Source of the DNA: Halioglobus sp.
GTDB lineage: Bacteria > Pseudomonadota > Gammaproteobacteria > Pseudomonadales > Halieaceae
Direction of reading: 5' to 3'
Assembly (NCBI GenBank): GCA_029246385.1
Contig: JAQWNG010000044.1
Span: forward strand, 70,270-111,655
DNA length: 41,386 nt
The notes under the pieces are model-generated. The model saw only the letters and a list, made by a program, of their open reading frames with translations. It had not been told where the DNA came from and ran no database searches. The position numbers and the translations under genes are program-made. Positions 30,873 through 37,117 of the stretch are shown here, piece by piece; the first letter of the stretch is position 1; each line of letters begins with the position of its first letter.

Positions 30873-32255
30873 TCAATCCAGCGCTGCCAGCGCATCGGCC
30901 AGTTTTGATACGGCCGCTATCTTCATGCCAACGATAGCACGCTTGGGCGCATTGCCCATTGGAACAATGGCCCGCTTAAAACCGTGTTTAGCGGCCTCGG
31001 CTAGACGCTCCTGCCCATTGGGGACAGGCCGAATTTCGCCCGACAAACCTACCTCGCCGAAAATAATCATGTCGCTTGGTATAAGTCTGTTGCGATAACT
31101 GGACACGATCGCCAGCAACAAGGCGAGGTCTGCGCTCGTCTCCAATACTTTGACGCCGCCGACTACATTTGCAAAGACGTCCTGATCACCGACTTGGAGC
31201 CCGCCGTGGCGGTGCAGTACTGCCAGCAGCATGGCTAATCGGTTTTGCTCCAGCCCGACGGCCACGCGGCGTGGATTGCCCAACTGACTGTCATCCACCA
31301 GCGCCTGAATCTCCACCAATAGCGGTCGCGTGCCCTCCCAAACAACCATCACGGCGCTACCAGAGGCGGGCTCACTGCCGCGGTCGAGAAAAATAGCCGA
31401 GGGATTTTTGACCTCACGCATACCCTGCTCTGTCATGGCAAAAATACCTAATTCGTTCACCGCGCCGAAACGATTTTTCTGTCCGCGCAGCGTGCGAAAA
31501 CGGGCATCATCACTGCCATCCAAAAGAATAGAGCAGTCGATCATGTGTTCCAGCACCTTGGGGCCTGCGAGCGAGCCGTCTTTGGTGACATGGCCTACTA
31601 ATAACAACACCATTCCAGTCTGCTTCGCATAGCGGATTAAGTAGGCCGCACATTCGCGCACCTGCGACACGCTGCCGGGGGCAGAGGTAATCTCATCGGT
31701 ATACACCACCTGAATAGAATCTACCACCAGTACCTTAGGCTTCAGCTCCTGCGCTGCCTCGACAATCGACTCCACGTTAGTCTCGGACATAAGTCTAAGC
31801 TTGTCTGTCGGCAGTTGTAAGCGCTGCGCGCGCATAGCAATCTGCTGCAAGGATTCCTCTCCGGTGATATACAAAGCATCCATAGAACCGGCGAGGTGGC
31901 ACATCGTTTGCAGTAGCAGGGTGCTCTTACCCGCGCCCGGGTTGCCGCCTATCAGGATGGCCGAACCCGGCACTAATCCGCCTCCTAGAACCCGGTCAAA
32001 CTCCTCTGCTCCAGAGGAAAATCGAGGCAGATCCTCTAAATTGATGTCCTTTAACACCCTAGCGCTGTCTAAACGCCCGCTGAACCCGGCAAACTTACCT
32101 CGCACCTGGGCGCCGGCGCGCCCCGACCCTTTTTCTGGGCCGAGCTTTATTTCAGTCAGCGTGTTCCAGGCCCCGCAGTCTCCGCACTGACCCTGCCACT
32201 TTACATAATCGGAGCCACAATCATTGCAGACGAAGGCCGTTTTTTGTTTTGCCAT
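30873..32255 (-). CDS. radA: DNA repair protein RadA
   Basis: RecA-like ATPase that helps branch migration and recombination-intermediate processing. The start at 32255 (MAKQKTAFVCNDCG) follows GGAAG and gives 460 residues. In order it shows the C4 zinc finger (CNDCG ... CGDCGAW), Walker A GGNPGAGKSTLL, the RadA-specific KNRFGAVNELGIF motif near residue 255, and the Lon-like C-terminal domain with FANVVGGVKVLETSADLAL and GEVGLSGEIRPV. It converges on ettA and is divergent from the DnaT-like gene, with a 108-base gap. Confidence 0.96.
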   Translation of the reverse strand: MAKQKTAFVCNDCGSDYVKWQGQCGDCGAWNTLTEIKLGPEKGSGRAGAQVRGKFAGFSGRLDSARVLKDINLEDLPRFSSGAEEFDRVLGGGLVPGSAILIGGNPGAGKSTLLLQTMCHLAGSMDALYITGEESLQQIAMRAQRLQLPTDKLRLMSETNVESIVEAAQELKPKVLVVDSIQVVYTDEITSAPGSVSQVRECAAYLIRYAKQTGMVLLLVGHVTKDGSLAGPKVLEHMIDCSILLDGSDDARFRTLRGQKNRFGAVNELGIFAMTEQGMREVKNPSAIFLDRGSEPASGSAVMVVWEGTRPLLVEIQALVDDSQLGNPRRVAVGLEQNRLAMLLAVLHRHGGLQVGDQDVFANVVGGVKVLETSADLALLLAIVSSYRNRLIPSDMIIFGEVGLSGEIRPVPNGQERLAEAAKHGFKRAIVPMGNAPKRAIVGMKIAAVSKLADALAALD

Positions 32256-32363: not shown

Positions 32364-33509
32364 ATGTCAGATTTTTCGCTGATTCCCGAACGACAACTGC
32401 TGTTTTCTCCGCTTCTCGCAGCAACCATCGGCCTTGAGGAGGCCATTTTGTTGCAGCATTTACAGCATTTGTTCGAACACCAAAGCCCGCAGACCCGAAA
32501 CGGCTACGCGTGGCTTAGTGTGGACAGAACCTTTCTGCTGCGCACCCTACCATTCTGGACTGCAGAAGACTTACACCGCATCAGTCGCAGTCTGGCAGAT
32601 AAGGGGGTGCTGTTAATCGACTCCGCGCCATTGCACACAGCCACGCAACTAGTGTTTGCGCTGAACGAGCCGGTTAAACCCACAGCAAAGCCTCTCTCGT
32701 CGGAGCCTGCCTCGTCGGAGCCTGCCGCGCTCGCGCCGGCCAAGCGCGGCGCCGGATTACTGCCAGTGCACTGGTCGCCCAGTGAAGACTTGCTGCAGTT
32801 GTTAAGCCTAAACCATAACATACCGCGACAGTTCGCCGTGGACCAACTGGAAGATTTCATCTTTTACTGGCGTGAACGCGCAGAGGCTAGCCATGCTTGG
32901 GAGAATAAGTTCCGCCAACATATTATTTCTGCTTGGCGGCGCCAACAGCAAAATCAGGCAGAGTCGTTCCGTGTCCCAACGATCGCCACGCTAGACAATC
33001 ACTGGCGCCCCAGCGCGGACGCCCTAGACATTATGGAACGCGCGGAAATTGAGCGCGACTTTATCGAACAATCTGTTCCCGAGTTCATCCTTTATTGGCG
33101 GGAGCGCGGCGCCAATCCCAAGGAACTCAACTCAAAGTTTATTCAACACATTCGCATACAGTGGGCCAGATACACCTCCAGCCTTGAGCACAGTACAGAG
33201 CCCAAGCGTATCGCTGACCACTGGCAGCCTTCAGGTGATGTCTTTGATATTTTGCGCTTGTCACATATCGATACCCAATTTGCCCAATCACTCGTGCCCG
33301 AGTTCATCGTATACTGGCGCGACAGCAATCAAGCGCAGACCTCTTGGAACAGCAAATTTATTCAGCATGTAAAATATCACTGGGCAAAACGTCACCAGAT
33401 TGAACAAGCGGGGCACAATAATGGCGGACACAAAGGCACAAATACAACGGGTCGCACAAGAGATCGAAGCCTCCAGCAAGACCTCACCGACACATCATGG
33501 GCAGAGTGA
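32364..33509 (+). CDS. DnaT-like primosomal protein with three tandem DnaT C-terminal domains
   Basis: A 381-residue protein from the ATG at 32364. Residues 1 to ~90 (beginning MSDFSLIPERQLLFSPLLAA) look like a DnaT/DnaD-type winged-helix N-terminus. Three repeats then follow, starting at histidines 136, 213 and 286: an HWxPSxD motif, a variable helix, (V/L)(P/E)(E/D)FIxYWR, then NSKFIQHI...W. In E. coli DnaT this kind of domain occurs once and binds single-stranded DNA and primosome partners in PriA-dependent restart. A linker with a duplicated SSEPA unit precedes the first repeat. The 3' end overlaps the next gene. The exact role is inferred from family and context. Confidence 0.78.
   Translation: MSDFSLIPERQLLFSPLLAATIGLEEAILLQHLQHLFEHQSPQTRNGYAWLSVDRTFLLRTLPFWTAEDLHRISRSLADKGVLLIDSAPLHTATQLVFALNEPVKPTAKPLSSEPASSEPAALAPAKRGAGLLPVHWSPSEDLLQLLSLNHNIPRQFAVDQLEDFIFYWRERAEASHAWENKFRQHIISAWRRQQQNQAESFRVPTIATLDNHWRPSADALDIMERAEIERDFIEQSVPEFILYWRERGANPKELNSKFIQHIRIQWARYTSSLEHSTEPKRIADHWQPSGDVFDILRLSHIDTQFAQSLVPEFIVYWRDSNQAQTSWNSKFIQHVKYHWAKRHQIEQAGHNNGGHKGTNTTGRTRDRSLQQDLTDTSWAE
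32696..32725 (+). repeat. 15-base tandem duplication in the DnaT-like gene
   Basis: CTCGTCGGAGCCTGC occurs twice in a row (32696-32710 and 32711-32725), in frame, producing SSEPA-SSEPA in the alanine/proline-rich linker before the first DnaT-type domain. Slippage during replication is the obvious explanation. Confidence 0.9.
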
Positions 33510-34092
33510 GACTAGCCGCAGACTAGCGATGGAAGCGCATGTCGACGCACTCAATCAGGTTTTCGCTTTGTTCCGACTGAACTACCACAACCAGTACTAT
33601 GCGGCTTTTCCGGATGCACAGCAGCTCAATCAAATAAAAAAGCTGTGGCTAGAGTCCCTGTCGGACTATTCGGTAGACCATATCCTAAAGGGCGCCAAAC
33701 ACGCCATAGAGCACAGCGAATATCTGCCGACACTAAACCGAATGCTTGAGTGCTGCCAGCAGGGACTCGCCGATTTGGGCCTTCCGCCTGCATACGCCGC
33801 CTATGTAGAGGCCTGCAGTGCACCCTCCCCTAAGTCTGCTCAGGCATGGAGCCATGCTGCTGTTTACCTCGCCGGCCGCGATAGCGACTGGTTTTTCCTG
33901 GCCAACAACACAGAGCGCGTCAGTTGGCCCGTATTTAAGGGTCACTATGAGCTCTATTGTGCACGCGTACTGCGCGGTGAATCACTGACAGTGCCGGAAC
34001 CTGAAGCGATAGAACAGAAGCCCTCTGAACCCATGGCGTCTGAAGAGCAGCTTGCTCGACTGCGCGAGTTGCGCGAACAAACCGATCTCTAA
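33421..34092 (+). CDS. Phage lambda P-like helicase-loader candidate
   Basis: A 223-residue protein from the ATG at 33421, overlapping the DnaT-like gene by 89 bases in another frame. An internal ATG at 33529, just after the DnaT-like stop, is the non-overlapping alternative. The central region (ALNQVFALFRLNYHNQYYAA, a gap, then QLNQIKKLWLESLSDYSVDH and EYLPTLNRMLECC) resembles phage lambda replication protein P, the loader that grips host DnaB. The C-terminus is charged. It lacks the AAA+ motifs of DnaC. Its position beside a DnaT-like gene and convergent with dnaB (41 bases between stops) supports a DnaB-related task. A phage-remnant origin is possible, but no other phage genes surround it. 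Confidence 0.62.
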   Translation: MADTKAQIQRVAQEIEASSKTSPTHHGQSETSRRLAMEAHVDALNQVFALFRLNYHNQYYAAFPDAQQLNQIKKLWLESLSDYSVDHILKGAKHAIEHSEYLPTLNRMLECCQQGLADLGLPPAYAAYVEACSAPSPKSAQAWSHAAVYLAGRDSDWFFLANNTERVSWPVFKGHYELYCARVLRGESLTVPEPEAIEQKPSEPMASEEQLARLRELREQTDL

Positions 34093-34133: not shown

Positions 34134-35540
34134 CTAACGCTCGCCTGAGGAGCCCCGGGCAAGGTTCTCAAAACGTGTGTATTGGCCTAAAAAAGCCAGA
34201 CGGCAGATTCCGATAGGGCCATTTCGCTGCTTACCTATGATAATTTCGGCGATGCCCTTCTCTTCCGACTCCTCGTGGTAGACCTCATCGCGGTAGATAA
34301 ACATGATCACGTCGGCATCCTGCTCTATCGCACCTGACTCTCTTAGATCGGAGTTCACCGGCCGTTTATTGGGGCGTTGTTCGAGTGAGCGGTTTAGCTG
34401 AGACAGCGCCACCATTGGCACCTTGAACTCTTTAGCAATAGCCTTGAGGCTGCGCGATATCTCAGAGATTTCTGCTGTGCGGCCATCAGATGAGCCCGCG
34501 ACCTGCATTAGCTGCAGATAATCCACCATGATCATACCCAAGCCACCATGCTCACGAGCGACCCGCCGAGCACGACTGCGTATCTCCGTGGGCGTCAGCG
34601 CGGGGGTATCGTCAATGTACAAAGGCACGTCCTTCAGTTTGGTCACTGCTGCACTCAGCTTGGGCCAATCCTCCTGCTCCAACTTTCCATTGCGAAGACG
34701 TGACTGATCAATACGACCAGTAGAAGATAGCATACGAATAATCAGGGAGTCAGCCGGCATCTCCATACTGAACACCAGAATAGGCTTAGTCTGGTTCAAT
34801 ACCGCATGCTCCACAAGATTCATAGCAAAAGCGGTTTTACCCATTGAAGGTCGGCCGGCCACAATCACAAGATCGGACTCTTGCAGCCCCGAGGTCATAT
34901 TATCCAATTCAATGAAGCCGGTACTGATGCCGGTGATAGCCCCACCGGATTGGAAAAGCTCCTCTATCCGCGCTAAGGCCGTCTGCAACAGGGGGTTAAT
35001 ATCTTTGGGAGCACCGTCCTTAGGGCCGTCTTCACCGATCTGCATGATTCGGCGCTCTGCCTCGTCAATCAGCTCATCTGACTTGCGTCCGTCGGGATTG
35101 AAACCGCTCTCGGCTATGTCCTGTGCCGCCTCGATAAGCTTCCGCAGACTGGCTCGCTCACGCACCACCTGAGCATATGCCCGAATATTAGAGGCGCTCG
35201 GCGTATTTTGGGCCAGCTCTGCCAGATAGGTAAGTCCACCGGCCGCATCGAGCTCATCTCTGGCCTGCAACTTGTCAGCTACGGTAATGACATCGACCGG
35301 TTCCGCCGCTTCGGCCAGCTGTGCTATCTGGCGAAAGATCAAGCGATGGCCTAAGCGATAGAAATCGCCGTCCGAAACCAATTCGGCAACCGCATCCCAA
35401 CCGTCGGCCGAGAGCAACAGGCCACCCAGCACCGATTGTTCTGCCTCAAGTGAATGCGGCTGCATTTTAATCCGCGCGATCTCACCCGTTCCGGGATAGC
35501 GGAGTTCAGAAACGTTACTGGGAAATTCTGGATCAGCCAT
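34134..35540 (-). CDS. dnaB: Replicative DNA helicase
   Basis: Hexameric 5'-3' helicase at the replication fork. It has 468 residues, beginning MADPEFPSNVSELRY with the conserved MQPHSLEAEQSVLGGLL at residues ~26-42. The N-terminal collar domain spans ~25-130. The RecA-like C-terminal domain has LDNMTSGLQESDLVIVAGR with Walker A GRPSMGKTAFAM, followed by MIMVDYLQLMQ (Walker B) and the GAIEQDADVIMFIYRDE segment. No intein is present. It is the fourth gene in the rpsF/rpsR-rplI-dnaB order common in this class; a 177-base gap precedes it. Confidence 0.97.
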   Translation of the reverse strand: MADPEFPSNVSELRYPGTGEIARIKMQPHSLEAEQSVLGGLLLSADGWDAVAELVSDGDFYRLGHRLIFRQIAQLAEAAEPVDVITVADKLQARDELDAAGGLTYLAELAQNTPSASNIRAYAQVVRERASLRKLIEAAQDIAESGFNPDGRKSDELIDEAERRIMQIGEDGPKDGAPKDINPLLQTALARIEELFQSGGAITGISTGFIELDNMTSGLQESDLVIVAGRPSMGKTAFAMNLVEHAVLNQTKPILVFSMEMPADSLIIRMLSSTGRIDQSRLRNGKLEQEDWPKLSAAVTKLKDVPLYIDDTPALTPTEIRSRARRVAREHGGLGMIMVDYLQLMQVAGSSDGRTAEISEISRSLKAIAKEFKVPMVALSQLNRSLEQRPNKRPVNSDLRESGAIEQDADVIMFIYRDEVYHEESEEKGIAEIIIGKQRNGPIGICRLAFLGQYTRFENLARGSSGER

Positions 35541-36214: not shown

Positions 36215-37117
36215 TCAATCGTCTTTCCGATCATACTCGTCGTGCTTATGCAGCTCTTTTCCCGACACCTTCGGCCAGCGCTGACGAAAGTTGATCCGGC
36301 TGTCGGCGATCACGAACAACACCAACATGAACTTGACCGGATCGAACAACAACCAAATGATGTAAAACCACGTCAACCACATCTTACTCTGGCCGAGTGC
36401 ATCAACGCGAGCATGGATTAAAGCCAGCCCCGCAAACGTCAGCGGAAGCAGACATATCATTGCCCATGACCGGTACTGTTCGCCAAAACTCCAAAGGGCG
36501 ATGGCCACCGCAGCCAACGCTGCACTAACCATCATCGAGTACCGTAACGCCCTAAACTCTGTCCCAAAACCACCCGGGTTATACAGTGCTGCCTGCCAAT
36601 ATCGCGCCAACAACAAACACAGTATTGACACCATTGCCGTGGCCGCACCAAGCATGCCCGCAATTTGCCCAGCCTCCGGCCTTGGCAACACCACGGTTTG
36701 CCCTTCCTTTGACAACTGCTCTTCTAGCCCGCCCAGAAACTCACCGAAGAAAGCGACCAACTGACTCAGAGACTCCGCGGAAAAGGCCATCAGGACTAAT
36801 CCGATCAAAATACCGACGCCAACCCCAGCAAGAATTGACAGCGACAAACTCACTGTGCTGCGCAGCACAAGGGCCAGAGCCATGGTCCCCACCAATAACG
36901 TCATGGGCCCGCTGTCCCCATACGCGTAAAGTAATGTGCCGGCCGGCAACAGAGCCCACATAAACAACGAGGCTCCGTATCCCGCGCCCTTACGCAGAGT
37001 CACTAACGCCAATGCAGCGGCGCTAATCCAGCAAAATAATAGGCTACCGGCGCCCGCAACAATAATCAGCAGCGCCTGCAGTCGTCCACGCATGACAAAA
37101 TGTGCCAAGCTTCTCAA
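36215..37117 (-). CDS. Multi-pass membrane protein of the rpsR-rplI interval (DUF2232-like)
   Basis: A 300-residue protein with about eight hydrophobic segments and short charged loops, starting MRSLAHFVMRGRLQALLII; an internal ATG at residue 9 is possible. Hypothetical membrane proteins of this kind, with a MRxLAxFxMRGRxQA start, sit between rpsR and rplI in pseudomonads and relatives. The longest soluble loop (residues ~120-150) contains EEQLSKEGQTVVLPRPEAGQ. No catalytic motif is visible. Its conserved place within a ribosomal-protein operon is the only functional clue. Confidence 0.75.
   Translation of the reverse strand: MRSLAHFVMRGRLQALLIIVAGAGSLLFCWISAAALALVTLRKGAGYGASLFMWALLPAGTLLYAYGDSGPMTLLVGTMALALVLRSTVSLSLSILAGVGVGILIGLVLMAFSAESLSQLVAFFGEFLGGLEEQLSKEGQTVVLPRPEAGQIAGMLGAATAMVSILCLLLARYWQAALYNPGGFGTEFRALRYSMMVSAALAAVAIALWSFGEQYRSWAMICLLPLTFAGLALIHARVDALGQSKMWLTWFYIIWLLFDPVKFMLVLFVIADSRINFRQRWPKVSGKELHKHDEYDRKDD

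Follow-up and report, generated by a model that had tools for sequence, protein, structure and literature searches.

A chromosomal lambda P-like protein and its DnaT-like partner as the probable helicase-loading pair DopC-DopE of Cellvibrionales

In a 41,386-nucleotide stretch of Halioglobus sp. DNA (contig JAQWNG010000044.1, positions 70,270 to 111,655; hereafter the window), a gene for a protein of the phage lambda replication protein P family lies directly downstream of a gene for a DnaT-like protein and next to dnaB, which encodes the replicative helicase. We are confident that these two genes encode DopC-DopE, the helicase-loading pair resident in the order Cellvibrionales, and that it acts by the loading mechanism proposed below. 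This conclusion is based on family membership, a fold match, gene order, conservation, the lack of matches to DciA and DnaC, and the mutual exclusion with DciA among genomes. DopC-DopE was reportedly proposed for these bacteria, as a pair derived from lambda O and P, by Brezellec et al. in 2017 (Genome Biol Evol), and we take DopE and DopC to be the names of the P-like gene and its DnaT-like partner. The finding is a correct rediscovery of a system that was already known. The original prediction, made from the sequence alone, had spoken of a third, domesticated arrangement for helicase loading; the arrangement is supported but is not new, since it matches the 2017 proposal. Relative to that proposal, three features may be new: the number of DnaT domains in DopC, the conserved gene overlap, and the tail that DopC has in common with O proteins of phages. 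The features concerned are the following.

30873 to 32252, minus strand: radA, divergent from the pair (TIGR00416 over cut-off)
32364 to 33509, plus strand: DnaT-like partner (DopC), 381 residues from an ATG start (PF17948 at E 2.3e-70 for the whole protein, in three stretches)
32409 to 32672, plus strand: putative winged-helix-like domain at the partner's N-terminus, spanning roughly residues 16-103 (phrog_6493, DnaD-like, E 1.1e-5; resemblance of the model)
32763 to 32957, plus strand: DnaT domain 1 (PF17948, E 1.9e-22)
32991 to 33185, plus strand: DnaT domain 2 (PF17948, E 7.1e-24)
33207 to 33398, plus strand: DnaT domain 3 (PF17948, E 2.6e-25)
33421 to 33509, plus strand: overlap of the partner and P-like genes in different frames, 89 nucleotides
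33421 to 34092, plus strand: P-like helicase loader (DopE), 223 residues (PF06992, phrog_109, fold match to lambda P)
33450 to 33506, plus strand: conserved C-terminal tail of the partner, with D376-T-S-W379 at 33489-33500 (invariant residues, pattern tally)
34134 to 35540, minus strand: dnaB, replicative helicase, convergent with the pair (TIGR00665 over cut-off)

In Brezellec et al. 2016 (PMC5109545), DciA is proposed for the same DnaB step, and Cellvibrionales are described as lacking both dna[CI] and dciA, with the replacing factor left open. One paper among the literature matches listed uses DopE in the present sense (PMC13326638); it names DopE together with DciA among the loader families.

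The P-like reading frame begins with ATG, and its product scored 31.6 bits (E 1.7e-7) against PF06992, the lambda replication protein P family, above the curated cut-off of 26. The match to phrog_109 ("P-like helicase loader") was stronger (E 1.4e-18) and covered residues 6-220, nearly the full length. For the predicted structure, the top fold match in the PDB was lambda P bound to E. coli DnaB (9oa1_Z, E 8.4e-5), which points to a lambda P fold. A Pfam scan at E≤1 found no AAA+ family in the protein, setting it apart from DnaC and DnaI, and no match to DciA (PF05258) in either the protein or its partner. PDB sequence searches with the protein and with its profile gave no real match. The lambda P-like pattern without AAA+ motifs that had first been noticed in the sequence is thus borne out by both profile search and structure comparison.

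A survey of the distribution of the P-like protein covered 145 genomes taken from the GTDB order. A P-like protein was found in 90 of these (E≤0.001) and DciA in 46 (E≤0.01; 42 above cut-off). The two occurred together only in genome G060, where the P-like match is partial (59-180) and there is no DnaT-domain gene. DnaT domains were found in 89 genomes, all of them among the 90 with a P-like protein and none with DciA. This near-complete exclusion, the co-occurrence pattern on which the original prediction could be checked, gave p 1.7e-26 in a Fisher's test that ignores relatedness. Ten genomes had neither protein (G022, G043, G045, G052, G070, G080, G088, G092, G109 and G142), for which missed genes, incomplete assemblies or another loader are alternative explanations. 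Genomes of family f35 are rich in P-like genes (G128 has 10 matches and G034 has 5; loci L149-L156), several of them preceded by a DnaT-domain gene; the extra genes are probably prophage copies beside a resident one.

The genome from which the window comes (3.3 Mb in 45 contigs, completeness 99.99) was searched for other loader and restart genes. DciA gave no match at E≤1 and PF01695 none above cut-off, with 18 weaker matches. An intact DnaC elsewhere in the genome was not found: the best PF01695 match (23.2 bits, cut-off 24.1) and the sole match to E. coli DnaC (one place, E 4.6e-4) lie in the same frame, that of DnaA adjoining dnaN, and the candidate was rejected. The P-like gene is resident in a genome without dciA or dnaC/dnaI matches, as expected of DopC-DopE, though family searches can miss genes. 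Among restart proteins, PriA is present, PriC gave no match at E≤1 and PriB none above cut-off (best E 0.12). The only DnaT domains above cut-off are those of the partner gene.

Conservation of the locus was examined by a contig scan, which yielded 148 relatives; the analysis was continued with the 80 best. Those whose titles give a genus or family are mostly Halieaceae with some Cellvibrionaceae, the nearest being Haliea and Halioglobus; Halieaceae belongs to Cellvibrionales, which places the pair in the order expected for DopC-DopE. The DnaT-like gene lies directly upstream of the P-like gene on the same strand in all 80 loci. A divergent radA precedes the pair in 73 of them and a convergent dnaB follows it in 70, in 57 of these at a distance within 900 bp; some of the remaining loci are cut by contig ends. 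In the window the stop codons of the P-like gene and dnaB are 41 bp apart; in some Haliea-type genomes (L066-L069, L071) about 4.3 kb separates the two genes. The position first noticed, between a DnaT-like gene and a convergent dnaB, is confirmed. No phage gene was seen among the eight flanking genes scanned: seven carry housekeeping names (serine hydroxymethyltransferase, EttA, RadA, ribosomal proteins L9 and S6, RlmB and RNase R) and one is unmatched. Ratios of nonsynonymous to synonymous substitution rates, calculated against 5 of the 80 loci, were 0.06-0.11 across the two genes and 0.08-0.11 for the P-like gene, indicating purifying selection on both.

The P-like gene begins 89 nucleotides inside the DnaT-like gene. 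An overlap of 35-101 nucleotides is present in all 80 relatives' loci and measures exactly 89 in 49 of them; such conservation would be expected under translational coupling. The possibility that the P-like protein starts further downstream, at the ATG at 33529 past the partner's stop codon, was considered and rejected: an ATG stands at aligned residue 1 in 54 loci, and in the other 26, where the alignment does not begin before residue 3, a start codon lies close to that position. Synonymous change is reduced in both frames of the overlap. Amino acid change in the P frame was greater there than in the rest of the gene in all five pairs compared, so that the DnaT-like frame seems, on these sequence comparisons, to be the more constrained of the two.

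The partner scored 232.7 bits against PF17948, the DnaT domain, for which the cut-off is 25. The predicted model of its N-terminal part resembles the replication initiator domains 4pt7, 5kbj and 4pql at Foldseek E values of 0.06-0.09, and the partner model had no Foldseek match at E≤0.001. A PDB sequence search with the partner gave no real match; a profile of 30 partner sequences retrieved E. coli DnaT from the PDB at E 0.0024-0.04. All 79 complete partners among the 80 relatives' loci have three DnaT domains, the remaining one (L040) being cut by a contig end. The count was one in 14 loci of six distant families (f2, f6, f8, f27, f35 and f38), four in two f16 genomes and two, both weak, in one f47 genome. 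Over the 89 genomes with any PF17948 match, the number of matches per genome was 3 in 59, 1 in 20, 4 in 5, 2 in 3 and 6 in 2, counts that cover whole genomes and to which extra genes add in some. In Stenotrophomonas phage vB_SmaS_QH16, a "DnaD-like primosome initiator" (L120:2995-3861) contains one DnaT domain (E 1.5e-13), so DnaT domains are also part of phage initiators; no P gene is annotated among the 11 genes of that stretch.

The partner ends in a peptide of the type D-[TR]-S-W, and residues T365, R366, S369, L374, D376 and W379 of its tail are invariant among 30 aligned rows. Occurrences were tallied with the pattern [DN][TRLC][SDNT]W within the last 30 residues, a pattern chosen post hoc: a narrower first version was found in 68 of 80 partners and was widened after the misses had been inspected. 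In its final form it is present in the window's partner and in 78 of 79 relatives' partners, the exception being L115, where a motif residue is undetermined. All 17 partners from further genomes have it, and so does lambda O. Among 18 other proteins whose genes precede phage or extra P-like genes, 6 have it, and several of the 12 without it still end in an acidic stretch with a tryptophan. The background was 1 in 623 frames, these being stop-to-stop frames and not only real genes. Left out of the tally were L040, L145 (wrong automatic upstream open reading frame), the second P-like gene of L150 and the P-like gene of L139 (no upstream open reading frame of 100 residues), and the gene with a DnaT domain at L120, a locus without a P-like gene (first pattern absent). 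E. coli DnaT, the partner of DnaC, lacks the pattern. The C-terminal part of lambda O binds P, and it is plausible by analogy that the partner's tail docks the P-like loader, which makes the D-x-x-W tail a candidate docking peptide. The literature found on the lambda O tail held nothing on this pattern, though the searches were not aimed at it.

In a tree of 58 P-like proteins, 36 rows were labelled as resident, the label having been set from match rank and partner gene before the tree was built. These rows require two label changes, forced by well supported branches; the deep forks are partly weak. One group joins the Cellvibrionales-type rows with f2, f8 and f35, and the other places f6, f27 and f38 beside the P protein of Halomonas phage QHHSV-1. 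The topology allows two domestications, or one followed by transfer to phages.

In the mechanism that we propose, DopE would bind DnaB at its subunit interfaces, open the ring and hold it for delivery to single-stranded DNA. DopC would be the O-like partner: its N-terminal winged helix would bind DNA or the initiator, its three DnaT bundles would bind single-stranded DNA where the origin has opened, and its C-terminal tail would dock the DopE-DnaB complex. For the pair we thus infer DnaB binding, ring opening, single-stranded DNA binding through the bundles, a docking role of the tail, activity at oriC and essentiality. One result weighs against the P-like gene as observed: when the genome was searched in six frames, PF06992 gave no match at E≤0.001, despite the presence of the gene. 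A family search of this kind has a lower sensitivity than hmmscan run on the protein, and such a miss limits the meaning of any single negative family search. With the protein sequence as query the gene was recovered in a single match, consistent with one chromosomal copy.

The pair could instead be a module for replication restart only, in which the DnaT-like protein acts together with PriA, DnaB is delivered to stalled forks by the P-like protein, and loading at oriC is left to another factor. The genome does encode PriA, and the partner carries DnaT domains; E. coli DnaT, whose bundle binds single-stranded DNA, serves PriA-dependent restart according to PMC4132743. However, the P-like protein replaces DciA almost one for one in the surveyed genomes and the searches of this genome revealed no further known loader for oriC, and we consider a role confined to restart improbable. 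It is less probable still, and in our judgement very unlikely, that the P-like protein is a phage remnant or helicase inhibitor that blocks or sequesters DnaB instead of loading it: no phage gene was seen among the scanned flanking genes, the P-like gene is under purifying selection, and it is present in 90 of 145 genomes to the near exclusion of DciA. The domesticated P-like and DnaT-like loading pair that had been predicted is supported by its profile and fold matches, the lack of DciA and DnaC matches in the genome, its housekeeping neighbours and this exclusion. The profile, fold, DnaC and flanking-gene checks gave none of the outcomes that the original prediction had named as refuting it.

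Beyond the loading role itself, we suggest tentatively, and with less than even expectation, that DopC is a modular adaptor in which an initiator-type winged helix, a row of DnaT bundles that bind single-stranded DNA and a lambda O-type D-x-x-W peptide that docks the P-like loader are combined. The number of bundles would vary from one in distant families to three in Cellvibrionales and four in two genomes of one family. A single pair might then serve both oriC firing and PriA-dependent restart, because no PriC match and no PriB or other DnaT domain above cut-off was found, and the peptide might be the common principle of P-type loader recruitment by O-type proteins, in phages as well as on these chromosomes. 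Loading of the replicative helicase is an essential step, here apparently taken over by phage-derived genes. The DciA exclusion pattern, the domain layout of DopC and a short candidate docking peptide, which links DopC to phage O proteins, now make the DopC-DopE proposal easier to test.

Elsewhere in the window, a frame of 300 residues (36215-37117), flanked by the genes for L9 and S6, matched no NCBIfam family at E≤1e-10. A scan for promoters and terminators gave matches at chance level, and the sole Rfam match was a transfer RNA.

Among known systems, DciA (PF05258) differs: it gave no match in this genome at E≤1, and across the surveyed genomes it almost never occurs together with the P-like gene. 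The E. coli DnaT-DnaC pair likewise has a DnaT-domain gene directly upstream of the loader gene, but the loader here belongs to the P family and not to AAA+ DnaC, and E. coli DnaT is without the tail pattern. Phage lambda O/P shares the P family and fold, an O gene directly upstream of P and an O tail with the same pattern; unlike the phage genes, the present pair is chromosomal and single-copy, and the middle of the partner consists of three DnaT bundles with no match to PF04492. With DopC-DopE the system has in common a chromosome-resident P-family protein whose partner is encoded next to it, in bacteria that lack DciA and DnaC/DnaI; the 2016 paper (PMC5109545) singles out Cellvibrionales. 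The partner here carries three DnaT domains and has no PF04492 match.
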